Origin: Oscillospiraceae bacterium
GTDB taxonomy: Bacteria; Bacillota; Clostridia; Oscillospirales; Oscillospiraceae
Length of the DNA: 64,000 nucleotides
Direction: 5' to 3'
Assembly (NCBI GenBank): GCA_017434755.1
Contig: JAFRER010000010.1
Coordinates: forward strand, 233,218 to 297,217
Every line of letters starts with the position of its first letter. The stretch's first letter is position 1. The notes beneath the pieces are model-generated. The model had not been told where the DNA came from, ran no database searches, and saw only the letters and a program-made list of their open reading frames with translations. Position numbers and translations under genes: made by a program. Positions 9,788 to 25,506 of the stretch are shown one piece after another.

Positions 9788-10539
9788 TCAGATTGCTGTC
9801 CGTGGGGAGCGGTTCCTCCGGGAACTGCTTCTATCTCGAAATAAACGGGAAAAAGCTCCTGATCGATCTGGGACTTCCGGCAAAGACCATCCGGAACGCA
9901 CTGAAAACAGTGGGCTGTGAGTTCGGCGATATCGATGCAGTCCTTATAACCCATACCCATTCGGACCACATCCGGGGCCTTGCAGTCAGCAGAAAACATC
10001 TGAGCTGTCCGATCTATTCCAGTGAGATCTCCTGCGCGGCACTGTTCCCGTTCGGACCGGTGCCGATCCCTATCGGAAGGCCCTTTGAAGTGGCGGACGG
10101 GATAAATGTGACGGCGTTCGAGACCTCGCATGACTGCCCCGGAAGCATTGGCTTTCGCTTCGACTATGAGGGCGGCGCTTTCGGCTACGCCACGGACCTC
10201 GGCTGTATGACCGAAAGGATACGGGAGACGCTGAAAGGCTGTGAATGCATCGTGCTGGAGTCGAACCACGACACGGACATGCTCCGGAGCGGACCGTATC
10301 CCTATGTACTGAAAAGGAGAATTCTTTCCGACAGCGGTCATCTGTCGAATGAAAGCTGTGCCGAAGCGGCTGCGTTTTTCGCACGAAACGGCACGGAGAA
10401 TCTCTTTCTTGCGCATCTGAGCCGCGAGAACAACGATCCGGAGACGGCGCTCCGGACGGCGGAAGAGGCATTGAAAAGTCTTCCGGTCTCCGTCAGGGTG
10501 CTGTCCCCGGGCTGCGATGAAGCGGTCTGTATAGAATAA
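9784..10539 (+). CDS. MBL-fold metallo-hydrolase, WalJ/YycJ-like
   Basis: A 251-residue metallo-beta-lactamase-fold protein. It has SVGSGSSGNCFYLE at the N-terminus, the metal-binding motif HTHSDH (about 57-62), a further His near FETSHDCPGS, an Asp in ATDLGC, and the LESNHD motif typical of the YycJ/WalJ subfamily. Near the end is FLAHLSRENND, which supplies the last His. WalJ-type proteins are exonuclease-like and linked in other Bacillota to the WalKR cell-wall stress regulators, but no walKR genes are present here. It is translationally coupled to the lipoprotein upstream. Confidence 0.88.
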   Translation: MIRLLSVGSGSSGNCFYLEINGKKLLIDLGLPAKTIRNALKTVGCEFGDIDAVLITHTHSDHIRGLAVSRKHLSCPIYSSEISCAALFPFGPVPIPIGRPFEVADGINVTAFETSHDCPGSIGFRFDYEGGAFGYATDLGCMTERIRETLKGCECIVLESNHDTDMLRSGPYPYVLKRRILSDSGHLSNESCAEAAAFFARNGTENLFLAHLSRENNDPETALRTAEEALKSLPVSVRVLSPGCDEAVCIE

Positions 10540-10573
10540 AAAGGAGAAGGTATCTGATACCTTCTCCTTTTTT
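10538..10573. terminator. bidirectional terminator between convergent genes
   Basis: GGAGAAGGTAT pairs perfectly with ATACCTTCTCC around a 3-base loop, flanked by A5 and T6. It serves the metallo-hydrolase gene from the left and the TIR gene from the right; the TIR stop codon lies within the T-run. Confidence 0.9.
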
Positions 10574-12641
10574 ATCTTCCGAGGATCTCCCGGATCACAT
10601 AGTCAGTGTGCGGCGAATACAGCCCTGCCTGCTGCTGCGCCTCAAAATCTCCGATGATGGTCTCGACCTGACCTTCCCCGAGAGAGGCTATATGACGGAA
10701 AAGAGTGTCCGCATCGTCATAATAACCGCAGTACAGACAGGCATAGGCGAGATTCATCTGCACCAGCGGCTGGTCGGGCTGCAGCTGATATGCCGCGTAA
10801 GCCGCATCGAACGCGCCTTGAAAGTCCTGAACACAAATGAGTTCATAGTATGAAAGCCATGCATAGTACAGAGCATTATCAAAAATCCCGAGAGACTGAC
10901 AGGCTTCCCGGTATATGATCAGACCCTCTTCAAATCTATCCCATGTCCTGTCATAGTTGCCCATTTTAAAGGCATTCTCTCCGATGTTGAGAAGAAACTG
11001 CGCGTATATTGCCGCATCAGATGCAGTTCCGGTACGATCGCTTATTATCTGGTAGAGGTTTGCGGCAGTCTGATAGTACTTGTCAGCCTCTTCATAATCC
11101 CCCTGTCTGTTGAAGCAGAGACCGCGGTTATTGTAAAGATTGGCTAGAGTGATCAGAGCACCGGTGTCGTCATCGTTGTTTTTGGCTAATTCTTCTGCTG
11201 TTTTAATGGCTTCTTCAAAGTAATAATCGGCTTCCTTGAATCTGCCCTCATCGGAAAGACAGGTAGCCAGAACAGACACTGCCTGAACATGGCTGCTTCT
11301 GTTTTGCATGGAATCGGTATATTCCCTGAGCTCGGAATAGGACATGCACGCATCCTGAAGCCTCCGTTCTGCCTCTTCATAGTTGCCGGTCCTGCAGAGA
11401 AGAACTCCGTAGTTGTAATTGATTCTTGCAGACGCCTCGACAGCCTCCTCATTGTGCTCAATGCCCTCAAGTAATGCCAGGGCTTGTTCGTATTGATCTG
11501 AAGCGGATACATTGTCACCCAGATCTGAGTAATTGGCGCCGGCATTCATTGCAGTCATTACAGCCAGAATAGGATCGGGATCTGCTATCGTCTCCAGAAG
11601 CTCCGCTGCTTTCCGGTAATCCGCTTCCGCTTCCTGATATCTCCCCGCGGCATTGGCGGTTTTGCCGCGGTTATTATAAGCGGAGGCAAGAGCCTCCAGA
11701 CCGCCCGGATAGCCTGAATCCGCAAGGACGCGGTATATTTCAATGGCTTTATCCTCATAGGACAGTGCGTCCTCATACTGACCGAGGACGATCCCGGCTG
11801 TGGCAAGTTTTGCATAGTTGGCTGCGGCTTCGAATTCTGCCGCTTCCTTATTTGAGGAAAGGCTGAGTATTGCGTTTATGTCCTCTGTATTGCCTCGGAG
11901 AATATCCGCGATTTTGACATATGCACCGGGTACATTAGACAGATGATCAGGGAGCGAGTAGGTCAGTTCGCTGAGGATGCGCATGGACGCCTGTTCACGT
12001 CGTGCCGCTTCGTCCCTGTAATTGCCGGCCATTCTCATCAGACCGAGGGAGATACCGGTTACAGCCAGAAGGACTGCAGCGGCTCCTCCGGCTCTCGTCG
12101 CTATTCGTCTGCTGCGCCGCAGCTGATGCTCGCGCAGAAGATCCGCATGCTCGCAGCCCGTGATCCCGGCGATGACCTTCAGAAGCTCCGTATCCGCCTT
12201 GGCCATCATTTTTTTAACGTCGTTCCCCTCGGTGCGGATGTCCATGATCCGGTCCGCGATATCAGGAACGAGTTTCAGGGAGGGCGGGAAGGAATGCTCC
12301 GGATCGCCGCTGATGAGAAGGGGATAGATGCGTTCCGCCCTGCCGATCTCAATGAAGATGGAGACCTCCCTGTCTATCCATTCGGAGGAAGGTGTATCGG
12401 TGGAGCATACCACAACGAGGCAGTTGCAAGAATGCAGTGCGTTGTCGATGGTGTCGGTCAGGATGCGGCTGACGGGCAGTTCCTCCGTGTCGCGGAAGGC
12501 GCGGCGGATGTCCTCGAAGCCTTGTATGCGGATCCCGCGGGGGAGCTTATAGCTCTCGAGCGCGTTGAAGGATTTCTGGGTTATCTCTCCGTCAAGAGGA
12601 CGGTGGCGATAGCTGAAGAATACGTCGTAATCGAAACCCAT
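10572..12641 (-). CDS. TIR domain - transmembrane helix - TPR protein
   Basis: A 689-residue protein. Residues 1-125 form a bacterial TIR domain: YDVFFSYRH at the N-terminus, a BB-loop-like RRAFRDTEELP (about 46-56), and SSEWIDRE, in which Glu92 matches the catalytic Glu of NAD-cleaving TIR domains. A basic stretch (RRSRR) precedes one transmembrane helix (about 185-203), so positive-inside logic puts the TIR inside and the rest outside. Residues about 260-660 hold eight or more TPR-like repeats (NNRGKTANAAGRYQEAEADY and similar). It is the last gene of a five-gene leftward operon, two bases after its pseudo-TIR neighbour. Catalysis and topology are inferred. Confidence 0.88.
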   Translation of the reverse strand: MGFDYDVFFSYRHRPLDGEITQKSFNALESYKLPRGIRIQGFEDIRRAFRDTEELPVSRILTDTIDNALHSCNCLVVVCSTDTPSSEWIDREVSIFIEIGRAERIYPLLISGDPEHSFPPSLKLVPDIADRIMDIRTEGNDVKKMMAKADTELLKVIAGITGCEHADLLREHQLRRSRRIATRAGGAAAVLLAVTGISLGLMRMAGNYRDEAARREQASMRILSELTYSLPDHLSNVPGAYVKIADILRGNTEDINAILSLSSNKEAAEFEAAANYAKLATAGIVLGQYEDALSYEDKAIEIYRVLADSGYPGGLEALASAYNNRGKTANAAGRYQEAEADYRKAAELLETIADPDPILAVMTAMNAGANYSDLGDNVSASDQYEQALALLEGIEHNEEAVEASARINYNYGVLLCRTGNYEEAERRLQDACMSYSELREYTDSMQNRSSHVQAVSVLATCLSDEGRFKEADYYFEEAIKTAEELAKNNDDDTGALITLANLYNNRGLCFNRQGDYEEADKYYQTAANLYQIISDRTGTASDAAIYAQFLLNIGENAFKMGNYDRTWDRFEEGLIIYREACQSLGIFDNALYYAWLSYYELICVQDFQGAFDAAYAAYQLQPDQPLVQMNLAYACLYCGYYDDADTLFRHIASLGEGQVETIIGDFEAQQQAGLYSPHTDYVIREILGR

Positions 12642-12643
12642 GA

Positions 12644-13483
12644 TCAGCTTCCGTTTTCCTCGTCAACGAGCAACTCATCCAGCCCGTATTCCGCAAGGTC
12701 TGCCTTTGCGTTCTCCACGGCCTCATTGATATACTCAAGTGCGATCTCATCCCCTTCAAAAGTGGCGGGAAGCTCCTTGATGGTGCGCATGGCGATCTCA
12801 GTGCTGAGTCTGGTCTGCTCTTTGGCAATGTCACCCTCAGCCTTTGCGATCAGGCCGAGCCGGATAAAGATCGCCGCCGCCGTCAGGCAAATCACACCGG
12901 CGATGGAGAGGGCAATCGTCAAAGCCCGTTTGCGCCGCTGCCGGTGGCGCTGCTCGAGGGCGTCGGGGTGCAGCCCGAGGATGGAAGCCGTGATCCTGAC
13001 AGTTTCGTAACGGAGGACCTCCTTCTGCCTGGCCGGTGTGGAGGCGCGCAGATCCGCGGCCACAGGCTCTATGGTCTCAGTCTTCTCGATAACGGACATA
13101 TCCGGCATGATGCGGCGGACCGTTTTCTGCTCGATAAAGCCCTCGGGGAAGGAATCGACCGGCTCCGCATCCGCTATGATCGGGATCACGGACTCCTTGC
13201 CGTGGATCTGCCGGAAATAATTGAGCTTTTCCAGGATAACGGGATCGTCCTTCGTCCCCGGAGAGCAGAGAAGCGCCAGCCAGCGGCATGCCTCGAGGCG
13301 CTCCCTTCCGGCATCGTCAAGAAGGGCGTTTTCCGTGTCAAGCAGGATCCGCTTGTAATTTAGCGATGGATCCGGAAGAACCGTCCCGGCCGGGAGTCTG
13401 TATTTACGCAGACTCCCAGCCAGTATTTCCGCTTTTTCGGCATCGTGTCCGATTGCCAGTATGCAGATATCATATGTGTACAT
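12644..13483 (-). CDS. degenerate TIR-like membrane protein
   Basis: A 279-residue protein that parallels the first 210 residues of the adjacent TIR protein: YTYDICILAIGH in place of YDVFFSYRH, a shared KYRLP/YKLP phrase, and ALLCSPG in place of VVVCSTD. A similar helical linker with LGLHPDALEQRH follows, then a basic stretch (RQRRKR) and one transmembrane helix (about 190-212). The position equivalent to the TIR catalytic Glu appears occupied by Lys (VILEKL versus WIDREV), so it is probably inactive as an NADase. About 65 residues, probably outside, follow the helix. The ribosome binding site is GCAGGAGG. A regulatory partner of the active TIR is the simplest reading. Confidence 0.72.
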   Translation of the reverse strand: MYTYDICILAIGHDAEKAEILAGSLRKYRLPAGTVLPDPSLNYKRILLDTENALLDDAGRERLEACRWLALLCSPGTKDDPVILEKLNYFRQIHGKESVIPIIADAEPVDSFPEGFIEQKTVRRIMPDMSVIEKTETIEPVAADLRASTPARQKEVLRYETVRITASILGLHPDALEQRHRQRRKRALTIALSIAGVICLTAAAIFIRLGLIAKAEGDIAKEQTRLSTEIAMRTIKELPATFEGDEIALEYINEAVENAKADLAEYGLDELLVDEENGS

Positions 13484-13516
13484 GGTTGTTTCCTCCTGCG
13501 CCGGAATCCTGTTTGA

Positions 13517-15979
13517 TCAGTGGAGTTTATTTACAGAATCAAAAGACTCAAGAAGTGCGTAGAATTCGTCTGAAGTGAGATCGCCTTTATAATCGACACA
13601 GACCACGGCGAAATCGCCCAGCATGTCGCATTCAAACACGAGCTGGCCGGTGATCCGGTCATACCTTGCCCGGAATACCTTCAGGGAACTGTTGCTGTCA
13701 CGGAAGACGGCGAATATCATGACGTTCGTTTCCGGCGCCGGGCAGCTGAAGCGAACCGTAACCATACCGGTGAGTTCCGCTACTGTGTGCCCTTCCACTG
13801 AAGCCGAGACAGTATAGACGGTATCGAGCTCTTCCAGCGAGGCCGCCTGCTGTCCGGCTGTGTCGTCATTCGAAGTCACGGTGACGACCACATTCTGCTG
13901 AGCCCCCGGCTGCGGGTTTACGACCGGAGCGTGATCATTGTTGCTGTCATCATCGTTGCTGTTTTCATCATCATCGCTGCTGCCGGAATTGTTCGTGATA
14001 CCGGACCCGGTGAATATGGAGGAGCCCGCTCCGCCGGTAATGGAACCGGCCCCCGAACCGCCGAGTATGCCGCTGCCGGTCATGGATGTCTGGGTCGACA
14101 TGATGCTGCCTCCCCCGGTGCTGTCCTCTATTGCGCGTAATGACACCAGCCGGATGAGCCAAATCTGATCGGCGGGCACGAAGCCGTCGGTATATCTGCC
14201 GCTCTCGTCTATTTCGATCAGATGCCTTTCAAACTTGCCGTCGCTTATAGTGTACACTTCGATGTAACGGTATTGAGCATCATCGGAGAAATCGTCCTGG
14301 TAAGCGTCGGCAAGTTTGGAGAAAGACACAATGTCATCCGTAATAAGTTCGGAAGAAAGATAATCGTCTCCGTTATCCGGGACAGAGCCAGACCATGAAA
14401 ATGAGCCTGCCGGCCTCACGTGTGAGGTGGAGTCGATATTGACGGAAAGGACGGGAATGGCCGCGGGATCCGGCATTACCGCTTTATCCGGATCGACGAT
14501 TACGGACACGGCCGATCCTGCAGCCGATGTGAACCGCCTGGAAATGTCCTCTATCGTCACGGCCAATGCGGAGACGGTGACGGAGTCTTCGAGGAAAAAC
14601 CCCGGGTCCGTGACAGTATAATTCCCGGAGTTCAGCACGATCTTGCCGTCTCCCCAGATACCGCCGTTCAGAGAAACGATGCCGCTGCCCGGGTAGCCCT
14701 CTCTGACATAGCATTCAAGCGAAGCATCCGGAGCGAGAACGATCCGTGAGATCGACGAGCCGGCAGAGGAGATCAGAGAGCATGAGTCAGTTATGGTCAG
14801 CTTGATGTTCTGCGCATTGTTATACAACAGGGCGGTGTTATACATCAGGCCGCCTTGGAAAGCGGCGTCGACGGAGGCATGACCGTTGAATTCAAAGCAT
14901 CCGCCGGAGATGATTCCGGTGCCTTCCAGGGTCCCGCTGACGGTGACCTTCGGCCTTACCACCTTGCCAGAAAGGGCGGGGATGGTATGGGAAGTCATCG
15001 AGGCGCCGTCTTCCAGAACGAGCCCCGCTGATTCCGGTATGGTAAGATTGGCGGTGGAAAAGTCATAATCGTAGTTCGAGCCGAACTCAAACTGCGGATG
15101 AGATTCCGAAGGGTATGTGATGACCGATGCCGGCACCAGTTCGTCGTTTTCATCGTAGTGCAGTTTTGTGGTCACCTGCACGAGACTCTCAAGGATCAGG
15201 GAGGAATTCGCCGGGATCACGAGGGTGACGCCGTCGGGAACGGTATATGCCTCATCGAGTATTCCGGGAACGTCTTTACCGTTAATCAGCTCATATACGG
15301 CGTTGGCGCCGCCGGCCGTATCCGCCGGTGTCTGCAGCCGGAACACCGCCACGCTGCCGGAATCGTAAAGTCCCGCTATCGGATGCAGATAAAAGCCGCA
15401 ACCCTCGCTGAGCTGGATGTCATCCACCAGCAGGATCCCCGAGCCCGTGAGGTTCACGTCTCCGTCGGCATAGATGCCGTGCAGGCGGTTGAGTCCCGCC
15501 GCCTTTATGTTTATATCGCTGTCTGTCGATGTGAGATCATAATCGGAGCCGTCGAAATCGACCATGTAAAAGCAGTCGTCATCCGGATCGTTGCTTTTCT
15601 CCCCGGCATCGAATCCGAAAAGATCGTATGGATTATCGGTCGTTTGGGAGGACAGATCGACGCTGTCGTCTTCACCGGGAGTGAATTCAGTGACGTCAGC
15701 AGGATCCTCGATATTGCTTAAGGTGATCACGCCTGCTTCATCGGGATCGGCAGAATCGTCACCCTCCCCCTTGCCGTCTTCTCCGTCCTCATCGTCCGAA
15801 GCGGGTGCTCCGCGGGAGGGTGCAGGTGTATCTTCACCGGTATTCTCCTCATACTGGGGCAGGGGCTGATCGGGATTGGGGTCGTCTTCCATAAGATCGG
15901 CAGACGCTTTGGTGCTCAGGGTGAGCGCCAGCACGGAGGCTATGACCGCTCCGCTCAGTTTCTGTATCCATTTTTCCAT
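13517..15979 (-). CDS. secreted protein A of a three-member tandem family
   Basis: An 820-residue exported protein. The signal peptide ends in KASA-D (about 28) and is nearly identical in all three paralogues. Next come an acidic spacer and a beta-rich body with repeated GxIxGG / VDDI / GTL turns, suggesting a beta-helix or adhesin-like fold. A Gly/Ser/Thr-rich and then Asp-rich low-complexity linker (about 640-700) leads to a conserved C-terminal domain (about 715-820: MVTVRFSCPAPETN, GQLVFECDMLGDFAVVC, EFYALLESFDSVN). There is no sortase motif or transmembrane anchor, so it is released or held non-covalently. It is longer and more diverged than its two neighbours. Confidence 0.82.
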   Translation of the reverse strand: MEKWIQKLSGAVIASVLALTLSTKASADLMEDDPNPDQPLPQYEENTGEDTPAPSRGAPASDDEDGEDGKGEGDDSADPDEAGVITLSNIEDPADVTEFTPGEDDSVDLSSQTTDNPYDLFGFDAGEKSNDPDDDCFYMVDFDGSDYDLTSTDSDINIKAAGLNRLHGIYADGDVNLTGSGILLVDDIQLSEGCGFYLHPIAGLYDSGSVAVFRLQTPADTAGGANAVYELINGKDVPGILDEAYTVPDGVTLVIPANSSLILESLVQVTTKLHYDENDELVPASVITYPSESHPQFEFGSNYDYDFSTANLTIPESAGLVLEDGASMTSHTIPALSGKVVRPKVTVSGTLEGTGIISGGCFEFNGHASVDAAFQGGLMYNTALLYNNAQNIKLTITDSCSLISSAGSSISRIVLAPDASLECYVREGYPGSGIVSLNGGIWGDGKIVLNSGNYTVTDPGFFLEDSVTVSALAVTIEDISRRFTSAAGSAVSVIVDPDKAVMPDPAAIPVLSVNIDSTSHVRPAGSFSWSGSVPDNGDDYLSSELITDDIVSFSKLADAYQDDFSDDAQYRYIEVYTISDGKFERHLIEIDESGRYTDGFVPADQIWLIRLVSLRAIEDSTGGGSIMSTQTSMTGSGILGGSGAGSITGGAGSSIFTGSGITNNSGSSDDDENSNDDDSNNDHAPVVNPQPGAQQNVVVTVTSNDDTAGQQAASLEELDTVYTVSASVEGHTVAELTGMVTVRFSCPAPETNVMIFAVFRDSNSSLKVFRARYDRITGQLVFECDMLGDFAVVCVDYKGDLTSDEFYALLESFDSVNKLH

Positions 15980-16052
15980 AATCCGGTTCCTCCTTTCAGA
16001 GAAGGGATACCCGTTTCCGGGTCAGTAAAGCTTTATAAGAGATTTTTGCGAA
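15980..16052 (-). repeat. conserved intergenic copy 1 (paralogue B/A junction)
   Basis: This spacer is almost identical to 17889-17962. Both contain, in leftward reading, an AAGCTTTA-type stretch, a 5-bp hairpin (ACCCG-GAAA-CGGGT) with a GNRA tetraloop, and AAAGGAGG before the start codon. The duplication therefore covered gene plus spacer. The hairpin lacks a T-run and is unlikely to be a terminator. Confidence 0.85.
16009..16022 (-). promoter_or_regulatory. GAAA-tetraloop hairpin upstream of paralogue A
   Basis: ACCCG-GAAA-CGGGT in the transcript, about 20 bases before the AAAGGAGG ribosome binding site. It may be an mRNA processing or stabilising element. Confidence 0.5.
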
Positions 16053-17888
16053 TCAGAAAGATGCCTTCAGCGCATTGACGCTATCGATGGTCTCAAGGAA
16101 AGCATAGAACTTTTCGCCGGAGAGCTCTCCGTCAAAACCATCCGGGCAAATGACCACGAAGTCGCCGAGTTTGTCGCCGCTGAATACGAGCTGTCTGGCC
16201 ACGGCATCGTACCTCGCCGCGAAAGCGGTGAGACTGCCGTCCCCGTTGCGGAATACCACGAAGAACCTGCTTTCGGAGGCCGGCACGGGATAATCGAAGC
16301 GGACAGTCACCTTGCTGTTCAGAGAGAAGATCTGCTTTCTGTCAAGATAGGCGGCGAGATTGTAGCAGGTGTCTCTGTCGGTGACTTCCAGAATCAGAGA
16401 GCGATTGGAGGTCTTATACGATCCGGCATATTTGCCTCCTATAATACTGGAGCCGGTGCTTCCGGTCGAGTTGACAGTGGTGTCATTTCCCCCGCCCGCA
16501 CCGAGCTTGTACAGTCCCCATTTGAGCCAGCCCAGACTGCCGAGAGCATTTGCTGAAGGCATAGATCCGTAGAAATAGGCGGTTTCTGTGCCGGCGAACT
16601 CAAAACTGAATGTTGTGGCGTGGGTGCCCCATTTCCCGTTTGGGGTAGAAATGCCGTCGTTACTGGTGGCTTCCGTAAAGCCCTCGTCGCTGAGATTTGC
16701 ATGAAGATAGCTGTATACCTCCTCATCCAGATCGTCGACGGAAATGGTGCCGCTGCGTCTGACCAGCTTGAAAATGCTGCTGTCTATCGAAGGAGCGGAA
16801 GGAACGTAGTCCTCCGCACCGAGGTTAAGCTCAACGAGTCCTTTACCTGTGATACTGCCTGAGCCGAGCAAACTGCCCTCGACGTTCAGCACCGGGGCAT
16901 ACGTAACGGCGCCCCTGCCCACGGCAAGAGATCCGGAAACATCTTCACCGCGCATCGTAATAGTCGCATCACCCTGTAAGGTCATTGTGGAACCGCTTGA
17001 AATGGTGAGCGAACTGCTCGGTTCGAAAAACTGCCCGCAGGTATCGGCAAATTCGACATCTGACGTCACGGTGGTATCTTTAGGGTTGACCAGCTCAATG
17101 CTTGTGCCGCCGGGCATGATAAGATTCTTCCCAGAGGGGATCACATAGCTTTCATCCAGTATCCCGGGGACGCTTCCGTTGATAAGGACATAATTAGAAC
17201 CGGTTCCGGAACTGTCAGAGGTGCCTGCGGGAGGAGCAGACAGCAGAAACACGGCCACGCTTCCGGTGCTGCCGTTGTTCTCAAGACCTTCAAGGGGCTG
17301 CAGGAAAAAGCCCGGGATCCCTTCAGCAGGAAGGGCGAGCGGATCGATGGCAGTGCCGCCTATCATGAGATCGTCCAGCAGCATGATGCCGGTGCCGGAA
17401 ATGTACAGATCCTGACCGGCTTCAATGGAATAGATCTCGTTCAGTCCCGTAGCTTCAATATGGAGATCGGTGCCGTATGCGGTGACGGACTGCAGACTGT
17501 TGTCCACCATATAGACGATGTTGTCGCTCTGCAAGTTCGCCTCTCCGGCCTCATAGCCCCAGAAACCGGTCTTGTCCTCATCCGCGGTCTTATCGATGTC
17601 ATCCGGTGCATCGGGATCGATCTCAGTGACTTTATGGTCAGCGTCATTGTTGACGATCTCGATATACGGACCAGGGCTGCCGACAGTCGGATCGGCAGAA
17701 GCATCTCCGCCCTTTGACAGATCGATTCCACCTGCCGTGCCGGAACCATCGGCCGCACCTGCCTTTTCTTCGATCACCGTTGTTTCGGAAGGGGTTTCCT
17801 CAAGATCCGCAGAAGCTTTAGTGCTCAAAGTAAGCGCGATCGCGGAAGCGATCATCACGCCGCTCAGCTTCTTCATCCATTGTTCCAT
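16053..17888 (-). CDS. secreted protein B of a three-member tandem family
   Basis: A 611-residue exported protein with a KASA-D signal cleavage site, an acidic spacer, and a beta-rich body containing VYMVDNSLQSVTAYGTDLH, SGTGIMLLDDL and PGILDESYVIPSGKNLIMPG. These strand-and-turn patterns recall beta-helix proteins. The C-terminal domain (about 495-611) matches those of A and C (KVTVRFDYPVPASES, GDKLGDFVVICPDGFDGE, FYAFLETIDSVNALKASF). It is very close to paralogue C, with divergence concentrated around residues 380-440 and in the acidic spacer. It is a middle gene of the TIR operon. Function unknown; a surface or released ligand for the TIR receptor-like protein is speculation. Confidence 0.82.
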   Translation of the reverse strand: MEQWMKKLSGVMIASAIALTLSTKASADLEETPSETTVIEEKAGAADGSGTAGGIDLSKGGDASADPTVGSPGPYIEIVNNDADHKVTEIDPDAPDDIDKTADEDKTGFWGYEAGEANLQSDNIVYMVDNSLQSVTAYGTDLHIEATGLNEIYSIEAGQDLYISGTGIMLLDDLMIGGTAIDPLALPAEGIPGFFLQPLEGLENNGSTGSVAVFLLSAPPAGTSDSSGTGSNYVLINGSVPGILDESYVIPSGKNLIMPGGTSIELVNPKDTTVTSDVEFADTCGQFFEPSSSLTISSGSTMTLQGDATITMRGEDVSGSLAVGRGAVTYAPVLNVEGSLLGSGSITGKGLVELNLGAEDYVPSAPSIDSSIFKLVRRSGTISVDDLDEEVYSYLHANLSDEGFTEATSNDGISTPNGKWGTHATTFSFEFAGTETAYFYGSMPSANALGSLGWLKWGLYKLGAGGGNDTTVNSTGSTGSSIIGGKYAGSYKTSNRSLILEVTDRDTCYNLAAYLDRKQIFSLNSKVTVRFDYPVPASESRFFVVFRNGDGSLTAFAARYDAVARQLVFSGDKLGDFVVICPDGFDGELSGEKFYAFLETIDSVNALKASF

Positions 17889-17962
17889 GGTCCGGTTCCT
17901 CCTTTCAGGAGAAGGGATACCCGTTTCCGGGTCAATTAAGCTTTATAAGAGATTTTTGCGGA
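17889..17962 (-). repeat. conserved intergenic copy 2 (paralogue C/B junction)
   Basis: Nearly identical to 15980-16052, including the GAAA-loop hairpin at 17919-17932 and the AAAGGAGG ribosome binding site. This supports duplication of a gene-plus-leader unit. Confidence 0.85.
17919..17932 (-). promoter_or_regulatory. GAAA-tetraloop hairpin upstream of paralogue B
   Basis: The same ACCCG-GAAA-CGGGT hairpin as at 16009-16022, in the same position relative to the next start codon. Confidence 0.5.
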
Positions 17963-19810
17963 TCAGAAAGATGCCTTCAGCGCTTTGACGCTGTCGATGG
18001 TCTCAAGGAAAGCATAGAAATCCTCACTGAAGATCTCTCCGTCAAAACCATCCGGGCAGACGACCACGAAGTCGCCAAGCTTGTCGCCGCTGAATACGAG
18101 CTGTCCGGCCACGGCGTCGTACCTCGCCGCGAAAGCGGTGAGACTGCCGTCCCCGTTGCGGAACACCACGAAGAACCTGCCTTCGGAGGCTGGCACGGGA
18201 TAATCGAAGCGGACGGTCACCTTGCTGTTCAGAGAGAAGATCTGCTTACCGTCATAATAGGCGGCGAGATTGTAGCAGATGTCCCTGTCGGTAACCACCA
18301 GTATCAGAGAGTGATTGGAGGGCTTATACGATCCGGCATATTTGCCGCCTATGATACTGGAGCCGGTGCTTCCGGTCGTGTTGATGATGACATTGTTTCC
18401 CCCGCCCGCACCGAGCTTGACTATTCCCCATTTGAACCATCCCAGTCCGCCGATACCGTTTTTGGGGGAACCGGAAGAGCCGAACTCAGCTGTTTTGGAA
18501 TCGTCGATTTCAAAACCAAAGACCGTTGTGTGGACACCCCACAGTGGGTTCATACCATCAAGGCCGGCTTGGCTGGTAACGATCGCAAAATCCTCGTCGC
18601 TCATGTTAACATCTGCATCCAGATATTTGTAGAGCTCGTCATCCAGGTCCTTAAAGACAATGTTGCCGCTGCGTCTGACCAGTTTGAAAATGCGGCTGTC
18701 TATCGAAGGAGCGGAAGGAACCGGTTCTTCCGCACCGAGGTTAAGCTCAACGAGTCCTTTACCTGTGATACTGCCTGAGCCGAGCAAACTGCCCTCGATA
18801 TTCAGCACCGGGGCATATGTAATGGCACCCCTGCCCACGGCAAGAGATCCGGAAACATCTTCACCGCGCATCGTAATAGTCGCATCACCCTGCAAAGTCA
18901 TTGTGGAACCGCTTGAAATGGTGAGCGAACTGCTCGGTTCGAAAAACTGCCCGCAGGTATCGGCAAATTCGACATTCGACGTCACGGATGTAACTTCAGG
19001 ATTGACCAGTTCAATGCTCGTGCCGCCGGGCATGATAAGATTCTTCCCTGAGGGGATCACATAGCTTTCATCCAGTATCCCGGGGACGCTTCCGTTGATA
19101 AGGACATAATTAGAGCCGGTTCCGGAACCGTCAGAGGAGCCTCCGGAATCAGACAAAAGAAACACTGCCACGCTTCCGGTGCTGCCGTTATTCTCAAGAC
19201 CATCAAGGGGCTGCAGGAAAAAGCCCGGGATCCCTTCAGCAGGAAGGGCGAGCGGGTTGATGGTACTGCCGCCTATCATGAGATAATCCAGCAGCATAAT
19301 GCCTGTGCCGGAAATGTACAGATCCTGACCGGCTGCGATGGAATTGATCTCGTTCAGTCCCGCGGCTTCGATATGGAGATCGGTCTCGTATGCGGTGATG
19401 GACTGCAGACTGTTGTCTACCATATAGACGGTGTTGTCGCTCTGCGAGTCCGCCTCTCCGGCTTCATAACCCCAGAAACCGGTCCCGTCCTCATCATCGG
19501 TCATATCGATGTCATCCTCTGCATCGGGATCTATAACGACGGGGGGATCGCTGCTGACATTATTGTCGATCTGGATATACGGACCGACGTTGCTGCCGGT
19601 CGGATCGGCCGGAGCATCAGCCGGATCATCTCCGTCCCTCGTCGGATCAGTTCCGCCCGCTGTGCCGGAACCATCGGCCGCACCTGCATTATCTTCGATC
19701 ACCGTTGTTTCGGGAGGGGGATCCCCGTCCGCAGATGCTTTGGTGCTCAAAGTAAGCGCGATCGCGGAAGCGATCATCACGCCGCTCAGCTTCTTCATCC
19801 ATTGTTCCAT
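17963..19810 (-). CDS. secreted protein C of a three-member tandem family
   Basis: A 615-residue exported protein and the first gene of the operon. The signal peptide matches B almost exactly (MEQWMKKLSGVMIAS...KASAD). The acidic spacer carries Asp-rich stretches (PDAEDDIDMTDDEDG). The body and C-terminal domain align with B throughout; the most variable stretch is about 385-440, as in B, which suggests local diversification. It is preceded by GGGAGG eight bases before ATG and by its own promoter in the divergent control region. No anchor motif is seen. Confidence 0.82.
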   Translation of the reverse strand: MEQWMKKLSGVMIASAIALTLSTKASADGDPPPETTVIEDNAGAADGSGTAGGTDPTRDGDDPADAPADPTGSNVGPYIQIDNNVSSDPPVVIDPDAEDDIDMTDDEDGTGFWGYEAGEADSQSDNTVYMVDNSLQSITAYETDLHIEAAGLNEINSIAAGQDLYISGTGIMLLDYLMIGGSTINPLALPAEGIPGFFLQPLDGLENNGSTGSVAVFLLSDSGGSSDGSGTGSNYVLINGSVPGILDESYVIPSGKNLIMPGGTSIELVNPEVTSVTSNVEFADTCGQFFEPSSSLTISSGSTMTLQGDATITMRGEDVSGSLAVGRGAITYAPVLNIEGSLLGSGSITGKGLVELNLGAEEPVPSAPSIDSRIFKLVRRSGNIVFKDLDDELYKYLDADVNMSDEDFAIVTSQAGLDGMNPLWGVHTTVFGFEIDDSKTAEFGSSGSPKNGIGGLGWFKWGIVKLGAGGGNNVIINTTGSTGSSIIGGKYAGSYKPSNHSLILVVTDRDICYNLAAYYDGKQIFSLNSKVTVRFDYPVPASEGRFFVVFRNGDGSLTAFAARYDAVAGQLVFSGDKLGDFVVVCPDGFDGEIFSEDFYAFLETIDSVKALKASF

Positions 19811-19860
19811 ATCCGATACCTCCCGTCACAGGAATAAAATTATCCAATTTACCACATTAC

Positions 19861-19889
19861 ATCATATCACCGGGGCAGCATTTCCACAA
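19861..19889 (-). promoter_or_regulatory. leftward promoter of the secreted-protein/TIR operon
   Basis: Minus-strand TTGTGG (19889-19884), a 17-base spacer and TATGAT (19866-19861), about 50 bases before the first start codon. It is back to back with the rightward promoter 66 bases away. Confidence 0.55.
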
Positions 19890-19954
19890 CAGAAAACTTG
19901 CGTTTTTCAAAGAATTTGCAGTTCATTCACATCTGCCGGGACCTTAGCTTTTTG

Positions 19955-19983
19955 TTGACAAGTCGCCTGCCCCTTTTTATACT
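19955..19983 (+). promoter_or_regulatory. rightward promoter of the RyR-domain channel pair
   Basis: TTGACA (19955-19960), a 17-base spacer and TATACT (19978-19983): one of the strongest matches in the window. It implies an untranslated leader of about 65 bases before the ATG at 20057 and argues against the TTG start at 19898, which would lie upstream of the promoter. Confidence 0.85.
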
Positions 19984-20056
19984 TATCTTATTATTATGCT
20001 TTGCATCTGTTTATACGAAACAACGGGCCTTCCTGGCCGTGAAAACGGAGGCATTT

Positions 20057-21925
20057 ATGCTTACGATCCCTGTGATCCTGTTATCCGTGGCAGTTTTGCT
20101 GGCACTGATGATAAATCTTGTTTCAAAGAATTCCTCAAAACTGACCGCTTTCTGTATGATAGTGTCCATGGTGTGGGGATTCATTGTATACGGAACGGGA
20201 TTTGTCGAAGCCACCAATGGAAATGTTCCGCTCAGCATCCTGCGCACCGTGATGACCGTTCTGCGCATGTTCGTCGGTGTGAATGAGCTCTCTGCGATCC
20301 AGGGCACCACCTTTGTATCGGGCACAGGCTGGATGATCGCTTTCTGGGCAATGCACCTGATGGCTTTCTATTCAGCCACCAGTGCCATCATGTTCACGAT
20401 CGGAGCCGCGGCTCTGAGGCAGCTCCGTCTGTTTCTGTCGCGCAGAGGCGACCTGACGATCATTTACGGCATCAATGAAAACAGCATAAACCTCGGCAAG
20501 GAATGCCGCGCCGCCGGCGGAACATCGGTTATATTCGTCGAGGAAAACGTCGATTCATCGAAGATCCGCGAACTGAATGACATGGGCATGTCGGTGTTGG
20601 CAGGCTATTCCGCCGTGCATTCGGAGCCGAAGGCCATTCGGAAGCTGCATGTTACCGGCAGAAAGGTAACTGTTTATGCCATCAATTCAAAAACAGATCA
20701 GAATCTCTTCTATGCCCTTGAACTGAAAGAGGCACTTGAAAAAGCAGGGGTTTCCCCGGAGAACACATGTGTGACGCTTCCGGGTGCGGAGGAGATCATC
20801 ACATCCATGCTTCAGGTTTCCCCCGAACAATACGGGTTCGGCTATGTAAACGTTTTCGATTCAGCCACACTTGCGGCACGGACGATGATCAAGATCTGTC
20901 CGCCTTGGGAATACATGCACTTTACCGAGGACGGCCACGCCAAAGAAAATTTCGAATGTGTGATCGTCGGCTTCGGCAGCACGGGACAGGCGGCTCTGAA
21001 ACAGCTGCTGATCAACGGCCAGTATGCCGGCAGCACATTCCGGGCCACGGTCTTTGCCCCAGGGTTCGACAGCAGAGCGGGATATATCCTCGCCGACTGT
21101 CCGGAGCTTCTGGGCAAGTATGATATACAGAACGCAAAGGCCGATGGACGCAGCCGGGAATTCTATGACTTCATCGGGCAGCATCTGTCTACTCTTAAAG
21201 TCATTGCGATCTGCACGGGGAAGGACGAGATCAACCGGGAACTCTCGGATAACCTGATGCTCTATCTCAAGCGGAGACGCGCCGAGAATATCTGTGTCGT
21301 TCAGGTAGGACATAACGGAGCACGGTATCAGGAGACGGTGGGAAGCCCCATCATTCTGAGCCCAATCTACACTAAGGCTATGCTCTCCGCAGAGGAGGCA
21401 GACCGCAGTGCCATGATCCTCAACAGCATCTATGACAATTCCGACAGGAGCGACTGGGAAAAATGGGTCGCGTGCGACGCCTTCAGCAAGATGTCCTCCC
21501 GGGCCTCTGCAGATTTCATGCCTGCCTATATCAGGATTACCGGATCCACCGAAGAAGAGGTCAGGAGCGGGAACTGGTCTCCGAATGAGGAAATGCTTCC
21601 TGTACTCGGAGAGACGGAGCACCTGCGCTGGAACGCTTTCCATTTCTCGATGGGTTACAGGGTGATGAGCAACGAGGAACTGGAGAAGAACTTCCGGACA
21701 TGGACTTCCTGCAAAGAAAAGGGTATTCCGTGTACCATACGTATGACGAAAAATACCGAGGCACTCACACATGCCTGTCTTGTATCCTGGGATGAACTGG
21801 ATGATCTTTCTGCCCGCGAAAATGCGGTCACCGGAAGAAATGTGGATTATAAACAGTATGACATAAACAACGTTCTGGCTCTTCCCAGACTGTACGGAGC
21901 TTTGGAGAAGGACGGGAAGACATGA
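20057..21925 (+). CDS. four-helix membrane protein with two TrkA/RCK-like domains and a RyR-like C-terminus
   Basis: A 622-residue protein; the start at 20057 is set by GGAGG six bases upstream. Four hydrophobic helices (about 1-22, 28-49, 58-80, 88-117) contain no K+ filter. Two Rossmann-like NAD-binding segments follow: LTIIYGINENSINLGKE with acidic FVEEN (about 133-165) and FECVIVGFGSTGQAALK (about 299). The C-terminus (about 515-615) has GETEHLRWNAFHFSMGYR and ACLVSWDELDDLS, resembling the ryanodine-receptor (RyR) domain of bacterial conflict and signalling proteins. It overlaps the next gene by four bases. Probably a membrane effector or channel subunit gated by a nucleotide; this is inferred. 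Confidence 0.75.
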   Translation: MLTIPVILLSVAVLLALMINLVSKNSSKLTAFCMIVSMVWGFIVYGTGFVEATNGNVPLSILRTVMTVLRMFVGVNELSAIQGTTFVSGTGWMIAFWAMHLMAFYSATSAIMFTIGAAALRQLRLFLSRRGDLTIIYGINENSINLGKECRAAGGTSVIFVEENVDSSKIRELNDMGMSVLAGYSAVHSEPKAIRKLHVTGRKVTVYAINSKTDQNLFYALELKEALEKAGVSPENTCVTLPGAEEIITSMLQVSPEQYGFGYVNVFDSATLAARTMIKICPPWEYMHFTEDGHAKENFECVIVGFGSTGQAALKQLLINGQYAGSTFRATVFAPGFDSRAGYILADCPELLGKYDIQNAKADGRSREFYDFIGQHLSTLKVIAICTGKDEINRELSDNLMLYLKRRRAENICVVQVGHNGARYQETVGSPIILSPIYTKAMLSAEEADRSAMILNSIYDNSDRSDWEKWVACDAFSKMSSRASADFMPAYIRITGSTEEEVRSGNWSPNEEMLPVLGETEHLRWNAFHFSMGYRVMSNEELEKNFRTWTSCKEKGIPCTIRMTKNTEALTHACLVSWDELDDLSARENAVTGRNVDYKQYDINNVLALPRLYGALEKDGKT

Positions 21926-23454
21926 TGAAAAGACGCCTTAAGATACTGCTGATCGCGCTGGCGGTATATGCGGCCCTGCTTGTGATCCTGGTGGCTGTCG
22001 AATCTGCATCACCGGACGCGACCATCCACAATCTGTGGGATGCGCTGTGGTTCTCACTGATCACGATGACCACCGTCGGCTACGGAGACCTTTCCCCGGT
22101 GACAGCAGGCGGCAGAGCCGTAGGCATCATCTTTGCTCTCTGCAGTATAGGCATCCTCACACTGCTTATCGGCATCGGGCTGAGTATTATTAGCGGCCAT
22201 ACCATTCCGAGTCTGCGCCTTCGGTTCGGCCGCAGAAAGACCTGGTACGTATTCGACAGTGAAAACGAGGATACTGCCGTCCTTGCTGAAGAACTCAGAA
22301 AAAGTACAGAAAGATGCCTGCTTGTGTTCCCTGCCTCTTCAACCCGGCTCGTGACCGGAACCGAAGTTGTCAGGCTGGACGCGAACACTGATTCTTTGCT
22401 TCGACTGAGAGGCGGAAATAAAGACGGCATGTTCATGTTTTTTATGGTGGGCGACCCCTGGAAAGATTATTCCGAAGCCACTGAAGCTGCCGAAAAGGGC
22501 ATACATTCATACTGCATGGCAGATGTTGTTGCTGACGATATCCCCGAGGAATTGGAGCTGTTCAGTCGCAGGGAGGCTCTCAGCCGCTGCTACTGGAAAG
22601 AGCATCCGCTGAAAAATGAGGATGGTTGTGTTATCCTCATAGGCTGCGGACAAACGGGATCCGCACTTCTGGAGCGCGCGCTGCTCACCAATGTGTTTGA
22701 AAAAGGACGCACCACCGAATACCATGTGTTTGACGACAGCGCGGACTTTGAAACACTCCATCCGGAGCTGATGGAATACTTCGCTTCAAAGCCGTCCGAA
22801 GAGGACAGCCTGCTGTTCCATAAAGGAAGCTGGACCTCGGAAGCGGAACTGATCAGGACGGCCGACCGTATCATAATCTGCTGCGACGAAGACGCAGATG
22901 CTCTTGAAACCTATGAGACTTTAAAGACCTGGTTCCCGACCGGAGCGACAGTCCATGTGCGCCTGACGGCTCCCGTTCCCGGTGTTCCGGGCTTCGGAGA
23001 GAGGAAAGACGTTATCACCAGGGAATTTGTCATGAGGGATGCGGTGAACCGGCAGGCGAGGATGATGCATGCGATCTACAGTGAGAATTCTCCGTCACCT
23101 GTTGAATGGAAGGACCTCAGTTATTTCCTCAGGCAGTCCAATATAGCCGCCGCGGATCATCTCATCGTTAAGGCGAGATATCTGCTCGGCGATGAAAACA
23201 TGACAGAGCTGAGGGAGGAAGACTGCCGCCGGGCATATGAGCGCTTCAGGGAAGTGTATGCTGATCAGGCGGATATCCTCCAGGAGATGGAACACAGGCG
23301 CTGGATGCGCTTCCATCTGATGTTCAACTGGAAATACGATCCTGTCAGGAACAACAGTCATCGCCGCCACCCGCTGCTGCTTCCGTATGATGAGCTTTCG
23401 CAAGCAGAACAGCGAAAGGACTCCTATGCCTGGGAGATGCTCGGAAGAATTTGA
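21922..23454 (+). CDS. two-helix K+ channel with RCK-like domains and a RyR-like C-terminus
   Basis: A 510-residue protein. Two helices (about 5-26 and 63-92) flank a pore loop with the canonical potassium filter TMTTVGYGD (about 49-57). Two RCK/TrkA-like parts follow, with a clear second Rossmann motif (CVILIGCGQTGSALLERA, about 235). The C-terminus from about 455 has MEHRRWMRFHLMFNWKYDPV, then HRRHPLLLPYDEL and KDSYAWEML, close to the RyR domain pattern (HxxW, GWxYGPxR, hPxLvPydeL). RyR domains bind small ligands, probably nucleotides, in several settings. Together with the upstream overlapping gene it may form a hetero-oligomeric ligand-gated channel. Confidence 0.85.
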   Translation: MMKRRLKILLIALAVYAALLVILVAVESASPDATIHNLWDALWFSLITMTTVGYGDLSPVTAGGRAVGIIFALCSIGILTLLIGIGLSIISGHTIPSLRLRFGRRKTWYVFDSENEDTAVLAEELRKSTERCLLVFPASSTRLVTGTEVVRLDANTDSLLRLRGGNKDGMFMFFMVGDPWKDYSEATEAAEKGIHSYCMADVVADDIPEELELFSRREALSRCYWKEHPLKNEDGCVILIGCGQTGSALLERALLTNVFEKGRTTEYHVFDDSADFETLHPELMEYFASKPSEEDSLLFHKGSWTSEAELIRTADRIIICCDEDADALETYETLKTWFPTGATVHVRLTAPVPGVPGFGERKDVITREFVMRDAVNRQARMMHAIYSENSPSPVEWKDLSYFLRQSNIAAADHLIVKARYLLGDENMTELREEDCRRAYERFREVYADQADILQEMEHRRWMRFHLMFNWKYDPVRNNSHRRHPLLLPYDELSQAEQRKDSYAWEMLGRI

Positions 23455-23470
23455 GCTTAAAACGAATAAT

Positions 23471-23504
23471 AAAAAGACACCGTCCGGAAGGGCGGTGTCT
23501 TTTT
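23471..23504. terminator. bidirectional terminator between channel pair and pyr operon
   Basis: AAAAAGACACCG pairs with CGGTGTCTTTTT around a 10-base loop. It serves the rightward channel genes and the leftward pyr operon. Confidence 0.88.
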
Positions 23505-23519
23505 GCGTATATGCACGGT

Positions 23520-23936
23520 TCAGGGTGCTTTTGTTTCACAGTAGAGGCAACGGTAGACTTTGTTTACCCGATCTGTCAGCTTGAACACATGGTCCAGTTC
23601 CTGCTCGACGGACGTTATGCAGCGGGGGTTCCTGCAGAAGATCACGTTGGTGAGAGTCTCCGGCATCTCGATGCTGCGTTTCTCCACCAGCTGACCATCC
23701 CGGATGATGTTCACGATCACGCCGGGATCCACGTAACCGATCACGTCAAGATTAATGGGGATCTCCTCATCGATTTTGATAATATCTTTTTTGCCCTGTT
23801 TTTTGCTGTTGACATTCTTGATGATAGCCACGGAGCAGTTCAGTTTCTCCAGCCCGAGCAGATCATAGAGCTTCATGCCGCGGCCGGCGGTGATATGATC
23901 CAGAACGATCCCGTTCTGAATGGCGTCGATATTCAT
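23520..23936 (-). CDS. pyrI: aspartate carbamoyltransferase regulatory subunit
   Basis: A 138-residue zinc-binding regulatory chain. The N-terminal allosteric domain ([25 protein letters not shown]) is followed by the C-terminal zinc domain with a four-Cys site, C-x4-C (CRNPRC) and C-x2-C (CLYC). It binds effector nucleotides and assembles with PyrB trimers. The start is set by the ATATGA overlap with the pyrB stop; an upstream extension in the same frame lies inside pyrB. Last gene of the pyr operon. Confidence 0.95.
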
Positions 23937-24856
23937 ATGCGGCCTGCCTCCTTCAACAGTTTCATAATAAGCGCCATGCGCATGTATTTGCCGTTCAGCA
24001 CCTGCTTGAAATAGCAGGCGCGCGGATCGTCGTCCACGGCCACGCTGATCTCGTTTACACGGGGCAGCGGGTGCATGATGCACAGATCCTTCGAGGCATT
24101 TTTCAGCTTTTCAGGGGTGAGGATGTAGCTGTCTTTCAGGCGGAGATAGTCCTCCTCATTGAAGAACCGCTCGCGCTGCACACGCGTCATATAGAGGATG
24201 TCCAGATCGGGCATTGCTTTTTCCAGATCCGTTGTCTGTTCATACGGAATGCCCTGCCTGCGAAGCACGTCTTTTTTGACATAGCTGGGCAGCTTCAGCT
24301 CCTCCGGAGAAATGAGCACAAAGCGGACATTTTCATAACGGGAGAGAGCGTTGATGAGAGAATGAACGGTACGGCCGAATTTCAGGTCGCCGCAGAGGCC
24401 TACCGTGAGATCGGAAAAGCGTCCCTTCTCACGGTAGATGGTCAGAAGGTCGGCAAGGGTCTGCGTCGGGTGGTTGTGCCCGCCGTCGCCTGCATTGATC
24501 ACCGGAATGCTGGCGTTGGCGGCAGCTACCAGCGGAGCGCCCTCCTTTGGGTGGCGCATGGCGATGATATCGGCATAGCAGCTGATGGTCTTCGCCGTGT
24601 CGGCAACGCTCTCACCCTTGGCGGCGGAAGAACTGTTGGCCTCCGAAAAGCCGATCACGTTGCCGCCCAGCTCATACATGGCGGCCTCAAAGCTGAGGCG
24701 CGTCCTCGTAGACGGCTCAAAAAACAGCGTTGCCAGCTTCTTGCCGCGGCAGACCTGACTATAGGCCTCCGGCCGGGCGATGATATCGTTGGCGGTATCG
24801 ATCAGCTCCTGCAGTTCCTCGACGGAAAAATCCAGAATGTTGATCAGCGATCTCAT
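23933..24856 (-). CDS. pyrB: aspartate carbamoyltransferase catalytic subunit
   Basis: A 307-residue catalytic chain making N-carbamoyl-L-aspartate from carbamoyl phosphate and aspartate. It shows the carbamoyl-phosphate signature [12 protein letters not shown] (about 47-58), the HPKEGAP loop, [12 protein letters not shown] and [10 protein letters not shown], all conserved. Full length. It overlaps pyrE and pyrI by four bases each. Confidence 0.97.
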
Positions 24857-25506
24857 CCTTTTCCCTCCTCTATCCAGCTTTCATCCGAAGGATTCTCCCG
24901 GAAAGCCAGAAGACGGTCCACATCCTCCGGACGTATATAGGCCTCTTCCGCGGCTGTCCGGGCGATCACATCAAAATTGGTCAGCGAATGATTTTCCACT
25001 CCTGCGGCTGCCAGCCGCTCCAGACCTTTCTGCATGCCGTATGTAAAAATGCTGGCCACGCCCAGGACTTCCGCGCCTGCCTCGCGCAGGGCGTTCACCA
25101 CTTCGATCACGCTGCCGCCGGTAGAGATAAGATCCTCGATCACAACGACCTTCTGCCCCGGCTCGAGACGGCCCTCAATCTGGTTGCGCCGACCGTGGTC
25201 CTTGGCCCCGGAACGCACATAGCCCATGGGCATGTTCAGCAGATGTGCGGTGATGGCCGCATGGGCGATCCCTGCGGTGGATGTGCCCATCAGCACTTCG
25301 GCTTCCGGATAATACTCCCGGACGAGCTGTGCCAGGCCGTTTTCCACGTCCAGCCGCACCTCGGGGGAGGTCAGAGTCAGACGGTTATCACAGTAAACCG
25401 GGCTTTTGATCCCGCTTGCCCAGATGAAGGGCTCATCGGGACGGAACAAAACGGCATGGATCTTCAGAAGGTCCTTTGCAATCACTTCAGCATCGATCTT
25501 CTTCAT
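24853..25506 (-). CDS. pyrE: orotate phosphoribosyltransferase
   Basis: A 217-residue enzyme joining orotate to PRPP to give OMP. The PRPP-binding motif [14 protein letters not shown] is clear (about 121-134), as is the GRRNQIEG flexible loop preceded by GAKDH. The start MKKIDAEV is chosen because AAGGAG lies eight bases upstream; the frame opens seven codons earlier without a better site. The start overlaps the pyrF stop by four bases. Confidence 0.96.

Follow-up and report, generated by a model that had tools for sequence, protein, structure and literature searches.

In the Thoeris system, the effector ThsA carries a SLOG or Macro sensor domain. A gene set of an Oscillospiraceae bacterium, located in a 64,000-nucleotide stretch of DNA that we call the window (assembly GCA_017434755.1, contig JAFRER010000010.1, positions 233,218 to 297,217 of the forward strand), resembles Thoeris in pairing a presumed messenger-making TIR protein with a presumed effector that bears a nucleotide-binding sensor domain. 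It encodes a TIR-TPR receptor, a second TIR-like protein (pseudo-TIR), three secreted proteins (secA, secB and secC) and two membrane proteins with RCK-like parts and RyR domains (chanK and chanN, the RyR domain of the latter being putative). The TIR of the receptor has the catalytic glutamate (ThsB_TIR match above cut-off, Glu92 in 30/30 relatives), and the two-TIR arrangement recalls the staphylococcal ThsA-B1-B2 form described in passages of PMC12578639. Unlike Thoeris, the locus has a membrane-anchored receptor with predicted outward repeats, a RyR sensor, a K+ channel as effector and secreted partners. Searched with Pfam, neither chanN nor chanK showed a SLOG, SIR2 or Macro domain, and PADLOC gave no match up to E 1 for the channel proteins, the secreted proteins or pseudo-TIR. 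We regard the locus as a variant of TIR-messenger-effector signalling, in which the outward-facing receptor and the ion-channel effector are the unusual parts.

Other described systems resemble single parts of the locus. According to passages of a 2026 preprint (PMC13232231), RyR-domain proteins encoded by phages bind the 2' and 3' forms of cyclic ADP-ribose, and one cleaves both, the ligand contacts of RyDEP being His75, Trp78, His100 and Asp117. Like the RyDEP proteins, chanK has a RyR (R12) domain with the four ligand residues identically spaced, but in this locus the domain is joined to a K+ channel, whose gene accompanies that of a TIR protein, and presumably serves signal reading rather than removal. 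Animal ryanodine receptors, the channels of cyclic ADP-ribose signalling, also bear a RyR repeat domain on an ion channel, whereas the pore is here of the K+ type with RCK parts and not that of a Ca2+-release channel. As in Toll-like receptors, repeats outside, one helix and a TIR inside are predicted (from hydropathy and charge only, for the window protein and 11/11 others); in contrast, the TIR is N-terminal, which reverses the order, and the presumed output is a nucleotide plus a channel. From RCK-gated K+ channels, which have the same two-helix pore with the TVGYGD filter and would share the RCK-like parts, the locus differs by an added RyR domain and a paired filter-less subunit. Finally, DUF4062, a TIR-like family of enzymes that consume nicotinamide adenine dinucleotide (NAD+) and include anti-phage members, takes the place of TIR beside some RyR genes (L210, L211, L218) and links them to Swarozyc, which acts by NAD+ depletion and is described without RyR or channel in the passages seen of a 2026 preprint (PMC13174449). 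The titles and abstract openings among the literature matches listed contain no TIR-RyR-channel pairing, although an earlier prediction in a 2015 paper on nucleotide-centric conflict systems is possible; the term RyR is absent from PMC9503650 and PMC7159879, and ryanodine occurs in PMC8195603 in the reference list only.

According to the original prediction, these genes form one system and not independent modules that occur in unrelated contexts. When the RCK-RyR part of chanK was used to scan named genomes, 79 loci were obtained. Most are labelled as Clostridia of rumen or gut (Oscillospiraceae, Ruminococcaceae, Mogibacterium, Lachnospiraceae) and one as Coriobacteriaceae. TIR-family genes, pseudo-TIRs included, lie in the fetched flanks of 31 of these 79 RyR-channel loci, whereas the same TIR profiles matched none of 40 control loci (538 kb) around K+ channels that lack RyR, a contrast that speaks for one system. 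In 29 loci no more than 4 kb separates the channel genes from the nearest TIR match, and in 14 no more than 1 kb. Linkage was found in 22 of the 48 loci having at least 4 kb on both sides and in 9 of the 31 with shorter flanks. Gaps between the genes are often short or overlapping, and the linkage is seen in several families and with different TIR proteins. The system is real and recurrent, and the putative mechanism that its sequences suggest is well motivated. We consider it probable that the locus encodes one signalling system, made of an outward TIR receptor, an ADP-ribose-type messenger and a RyR/RCK K+ channel, with defence as its likely role.

A TIR-TPR gene is present in the flank of 19 of the 79 loci. 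In 17 of the 19, one strand carries first the channel genes, then in most cases a secreted-protein gene, then pseudo-TIR and finally TIR-TPR; the exceptions are L080, with the receptor genes upstream, and L093, which is divergent like the window, while L103 has its secreted gene last. Pseudo-TIR accompanies the receptor in 18/19 loci and a secreted relative in 17/19, with copy numbers of the latter from none (L109, L151) to three (window). The divergent layout is the rarer form and a local variant, and the secreted trio is a local variant too. The nearest relative, L076 (81% chanK identity), has the same divergent layout, and its contig ends within the secreted genes; in G130, taken as the L076 genome, a different short contig carries receptor and pseudo-TIR beside a secreted-gene end. 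Inter-gene distances in 15 operons correlate at 0.83-0.98, which fits co-inheritance as well as ordinary descent, and carries little weight. Mean pairwise identity is 72% for TIR, 55% for TPR, 35% for the secreted proteins, 59% for chanN and 52% for chanK. The idea that the outward parts evolve fastest was rejected as only partly true, the values of chanN and chanK standing against it. The well-supported branches of the chanK tree require TIR-TPR linkage to have changed at least 8 times; 'no TIR' in this count also covers loci truncated by a contig end, such as L076.

The channel proteins would provide the link to nucleotide ligands. In chanK, Pfam detects the pore domain Ion_trans_2 and a RyR domain (PF02026, 29.5 bits for a cut-off of 27.4), and the protein matches animal ryanodine receptor chains by sequence. 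Two pore helices are predicted, and the TVGYGD filter is nearly invariant in 73 chanK sequences (the window and 72 loci with a chanK open reading frame of 470-620 codons), which agrees with the expectation that one of the two RCK/RyR membrane proteins is a K+ channel. ChanN is a related membrane protein without a K+ selectivity filter; the two profiles match over the RCK part through the start of the RyR part with a probability of 99.4, and TrkA_N (RCK) is below the Pfam cut-off in both proteins. His458, Trp461, His483 and Asp500 of chanK correspond to the RyDEP contacts with identical spacing (3, 22, 17). Among the 73 sequences His458 and Trp461 are each kept in 73, the retrieval pattern having contained EHxRW so that these two were partly selected, and His483 and Asp500 are each kept in 71. 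ChanN played no part in retrieval. Its likely equivalents, numbered from the start at 20057, are His522, Trp525 and His572, present in 62/62 sequences (the window plus the 61 loci whose chanN open reading frame has 560-700 codons), together with Asp602 in 61/62 or Asp597 in 56.

The receptor passes the Pfam cut-offs of TPR and ThsB_TIR and falls slightly below that of TIR_2. Its TIR spans about residues 1-150, a helix at 184-202 follows a basic stretch, and the TPR repeats begin at about residue 280; by the positive-inside rule, it would cross the membrane once with the TIR inside and the TPR outside. Both the Trp and the Glu of the WxxxE motif are kept in 30/30 TIR-TPR relatives. Pseudo-TIR is a divergent paralogue of the TIR-helix part of the receptor, with a helix at 189-207 and no significant Pfam match. 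Its glutamate column depends on the alignment, with E in 4/8 sequences or E in 0/27 and K/R in 26, and is conserved in neither. Loss of the conserved Trp and Glu supports the earlier view that this second TIR is probably catalytically dead. In staphylococcal Thoeris, as described in passages of PMC12578639, the trigger is bound by one TIR protein, ThsB1, which recruits its catalytic partner; by analogy, pseudo-TIR may act like ThsB1. The genome of the window contains a second TIR-TPR gene, 57% identical (G000:C22, L072 1850-3964), around which no channel, pseudo-TIR or secreted relative was present in the 12 kb fetched.

TIR-TPR is not the sole receptor type beside these channels, as 12 of the 79 loci have another TIR protein. 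All 10 that were scanned pass the Pfam TIR_2 cut-off. The attached domains are of the beta-propeller type (L110, L131, L141), Sel1 (L122, L132, L135), MORN (L120) or LRR (L077, L137), with a weak PDZ below cut-off in L142; the L149 protein resembles that of L120 at its start, and a contig end leaves only a fragment of the one in L097. From hydropathy and charge, all 11 examined have a TIR, one strong helix and then a different second domain, with an extra weak hydrophobic stretch within the TIR of L120. The sequences may tentatively be read, at somewhat less than even confidence, as a bacterial Toll-like pathway in which interchangeable outward TIR receptors (TPR, beta-propeller, LRR, Sel1, MORN) would sense a cue at the surface of the cell and feed a NAD+-derived messenger to a RyR K+ channel. 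Two further loci were noted. L200 (4483-11301, G124:C60), outside the 79 loci, has a RyR-channel pair with a gene for a TIR/beta-propeller protein of 1146 amino acids directly downstream, and in L195 (4470-8509, G109:C38) a TIR protein with a weak NB-ARC and a clear TPR match is divergent from a distantly related RyR-channel-like gene (26% identity).

SecA and secB are 80% identical, and secC shows kinship with secA at its two ends (40% and 46%). No Pfam match whatsoever was obtained for the three proteins of the window. Among 27 family members, Pfam gave 5 families (best E 2.9e-07), all taken as low-complexity or chance, and a profile search of the PDB gave a best E of 0.0025 within a charged low-complexity part; judged by eye, a beta-helix is suspected. 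Because the family accompanies the TPR-type receptor, also without a nearby channel (L066), we place the secreted proteins with the TPR ectodomain, as its likely extracellular partners or baits.

Beyond these loci, RyR genes are rare, occurring in 10 of 398 genomes of the phylum, including that of the window. Six of the 9 other genomes (G384, G446, G235, G262, G430 and G512, the last two of the same genus) have a TIR_2 gene at most 2 kb from a RyR gene, for a background of TIR_2 in 57/398 genomes at E 1e-5. A DUF4062 gene is within 1 kb in two more (G349, G468), and neither is near the RyR gene of G280 within the fetched stretch. On the Arcobacter plasmid CP146529.1 (L218 4937-8660), TrkA_N, RyR and DUF4062 proteins are encoded consecutively, with recombinases and a type I restriction gene in the vicinity. 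Because RyR genes adjoin TIR_2 or DUF4062 genes in the phylum and on this plasmid, the RyR domain itself, and not just this channel, goes with TIR-family enzymes. This suggests that RyR domains in the phylum are general readers of TIR-family products. RyR genes without a channel also adjoin TIR genes (L209, L214, L215). In L209 (4527-6574, G446:C37), a small RyR gene lies 96 bp from a TIR protein with a right-handed beta-helix domain. L216 (6812-12066, G262:C1) has a TIR gene flanked by two RyR genes, one with a membrane-bound-looking start. A 284-amino-acid gene without Pfam match, a TIR protein, a LRR protein and a RyR protein of 576 amino acids, with no channel, are encoded in L201 (2761-9343, G124:C54). 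The window's own genome has a different RyR protein (575 amino acids; G000:C10, L204 6415-9682), whose gene overlaps one of 516 amino acids with weak, sub-threshold matches to the SLOG-related YAcAr and to DUF4231. Phage or plasmid origin was rejected: the RCK-RyR part of chanK has no match in phage records, none of its 22 pattern matches in viral contigs was confirmed, and plasmids gave one distant RyR protein match.

How the parts would work together can be outlined as follows. The TIR-TPR protein would be a receptor that crosses the membrane once, its TIR enzyme in the cytoplasm and its TPR repeats outside, where the secreted proteins may be partners or baits. Upon stimulation, the TIR domains, with pseudo-TIR as a regulatory partner, would turn NAD+ into a cyclic or linear ADP-ribose-type messenger. 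By binding to the RyR domains of both channel proteins, this messenger would alter the gating of the RCK-regulated K+ channel and with it membrane potential and K+ content. Defence through growth arrest or cell death is the likely purpose, an alarm for the envelope or cell contact being the alternative. We favour the path from TIR through an ADP-ribose-type messenger and RyR to the channel because the RyR ligand residues and the WxxxE glutamate are both conserved. Gating of the channels by a TIR product is, on this inference from the sequences, the best-supported mechanism.

At the level of whole genomes, the first 99 searched include 9 with a close chanK relative (at least 37% identity over nearly the whole protein; the window's genome included), 8 with a close pseudo-TIR relative and 7 with both. 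The modules adjoin in the window's genome and, as a same-strand run, in G017, and are on different contigs in the other 5, the channel contig of G014 being only 6.8 kb long so that distance is not judgeable there. Taken alone, this is weak evidence for a system. In 101 genus genomes TIR-TPR is present in 16 and any RyR gene in 26, a patchy distribution, after dropping G040 (TIR part only; TIR-TPR from 17 to 16) and G099 (weak, internal stop; RyR from 27 to 26). Both occur in 13 genomes for 4.1 expected (p 4.6e-7, not corrected for kinship). TIR-TPR is found without RyR in G009, G101 and G116, and the operon of G101 has a chanK without its RyR end. Linkage is seen in 5 of the 13 (G000, G017, G112, G121, G137), and in G130 it may plausibly span a contig break; G117 was left out. 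A TIR_2 match (E 0.01) is present in 68/101 genomes, with up to 10 in that of the window, a number at which a random 20-kb stretch would contain one about 9% of the time.

Several observations weigh against the reading of one TIR-RyR-channel system. No TIR was found in the fetched flanks of 48 of the 79 loci, 26 of them among the 48 well-flanked ones, where several related Lachnospiraceae loci are included. The controls of the 31/79 versus 0/40 comparison came only from the window's genus and order, with at most 8 kb per side and not the 10 kb of the test loci, and receptors of the test loci themselves served as seeds for its TIR profiles, with pseudo-TIRs counting as TIR-family matches. The TIR-TPR operon L099 has a chanK that lacks the RyR end, and no chanN was found there; besides the kinship among the genus genomes, TIR-TPR and RyR lie on different contigs in 6 of the 13 (G014, G022, G028, G031, G041, G102). 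In addition to the partial selection of His458 and Trp461 in chanK, Pfam gives no RyR match in chanN, chanN alone has no match to solved RyR structures, and its ligand residues are spaced differently, the equivalent Asp being either 597 or 602. The TIR-less loci, the separate contigs and the rate of random TIR matches would fit a chance neighbourhood of unrelated genes. This explanation is nevertheless strongly disfavoured and hardly credible. TIR-family genes flank 31 of 79 RyR-channel loci and no control; these loci come from several families, involve different TIR proteins and often have short or overlapping gaps. Chance was rejected on the recurrent order (17/19), the control contrast and the different receptors beside the same channels.

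Other explanations accept the gene set and differ on how it works. RCK domains commonly bind nucleotides, and glycines of the second RCK part are invariant (Gly241 of chanK, Gly305 and Gly310 of chanN), as expected if the TIR mainly destroyed NAD+ and the RCK (TrkA-N) domains sensed NAD+/NADH or ADP-ribose, leaving RyR a secondary or structural role. We regard such a readout of the NAD level as unlikely, in view of the channel-less RyR genes beside TIR genes, which indicate that RyR itself follows TIR, and of the RyR ligand residues, which are the best-kept part of the C-terminus. TIR domains also serve as adaptors, and the presence of a non-catalytic TIR-like protein with the receptor in 18/19 TIR-TPR channel loci would suit a scaffold, in which TIR domains are assembly modules contacting the channel or other partners directly and not enzymes. 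Conservation of the WxxxE Trp and Glu in every TIR-TPR relative and the occurrence of receptor and channel genes on separate contigs of one genome argue against it, and it appears very unlikely. The purpose of the system is more debatable. The secreted partners suggest an outside cue, and the lack of RCK-RyR matches in phage records and viral contigs, with one distant plasmid match, is atypical for a mobile defence gene; both would fit a housekeeping circuit, serving envelope stress, cell contact or electrical signalling, that sets K+ flux by the state of the surface. Patchy presence in the genus (RyR in 26/101, TIR-TPR in 16/101), swapped receptors and the Arcobacter plasmid, with its restriction gene and recombinases, point the other way, and we hold this role to be a serious though rather unlikely alternative to defence by TIR-messenger signalling.

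The features of the locus are listed in the table below. The list of open reading frames of the window confirms the positions given for the seven genes in the original prediction. Five genes point leftward and two rightward, and the terminators proposed at both ends correspond to terminator-like hairpins, both of them true inverted repeats with A and T flanks; a separate terminator scan did not pick up either of them. Back-to-back promoters had also been proposed: the rightward one is supported by its 11/12 match, but no match to a leftward one exists in the secA-chanN gap. Promoter-like matches across the whole region number 11, for 9.2 (standard deviation 3.0) in shuffles, and are thus not above the shuffles. 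The long open reading frame of chanN begins at TTG 19898. Its true start is very probably ATG 20057, because relatives align from residues 49-54 of the long frame (one from 80), GGAGG directly precedes this ATG, and the best plus-strand promoter match (19955-19983) sits downstream of the TTG. Downstream of the channels, on the minus strand (23520-27151), translations judged by eye, with no family search, resemble pyrimidine synthesis genes; the locus therefore appears to lie in housekeeping surroundings.

Table. Features of the TIR-RyR-channel locus, in positions of the window.
Feature	Positions	Strand	Basis
Hairpin with A and T flanks, bidirectional terminator-like, TIR-TPR end	10533..10577	.	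Inverted repeat, 22-nt arms, 91% complementary
TIR-TM-TPR receptor	10572..12641	-	Pfam TPR_12 and ThsB_TIR; single helix; Glu92 in WxxxE
Pseudo-TIR (TIR-like) membrane protein, no TPR	12644..13483	-	About 24% identity to the N-terminal part of TIR-TPR
Secreted protein C (secC)	13517..15979	-	Signal-peptide-like start (by eye); family of A and B; no Pfam domain
Secreted protein B (secB)	16053..17888	-	80% identity with secA
Secreted protein A (secA)	17963..19810	-	No Pfam domain
Promoter-like site ahead of the channel genes	19955..19983	+	TTGACA-17-TATACT, 11/12
ChanN, corrected start; two RCK-like parts, divergent RyR domain, no K+ filter	20057..21925	+	Relatives, GGAGG, chanK profile match
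ChanK; K+ pore (TVGYGD), RCK parts, RyR domain	21922..23454	+	Pfam Ion_trans_2 and RyR; conserved residues
Hairpin with A and T flanks, bidirectional terminator-like, channel end	23471..23504	.	Inverted repeat, 15-nt arms, 93% complementary

Because the genes of the enzyme and the channel are side by side, the locus offers a simple bacterial system in which to ask whether cyclic ADP-ribose acts directly on the RyR domains of a channel. If the proposed path is true, bacterial TIR signalling would gain outward-looking receptors and an ion channel as the target of its messenger. It would also be a prokaryotic counterpart of the coupling between cyclic ADP-ribose and ryanodine receptors known from animals, and the two might have a common origin.

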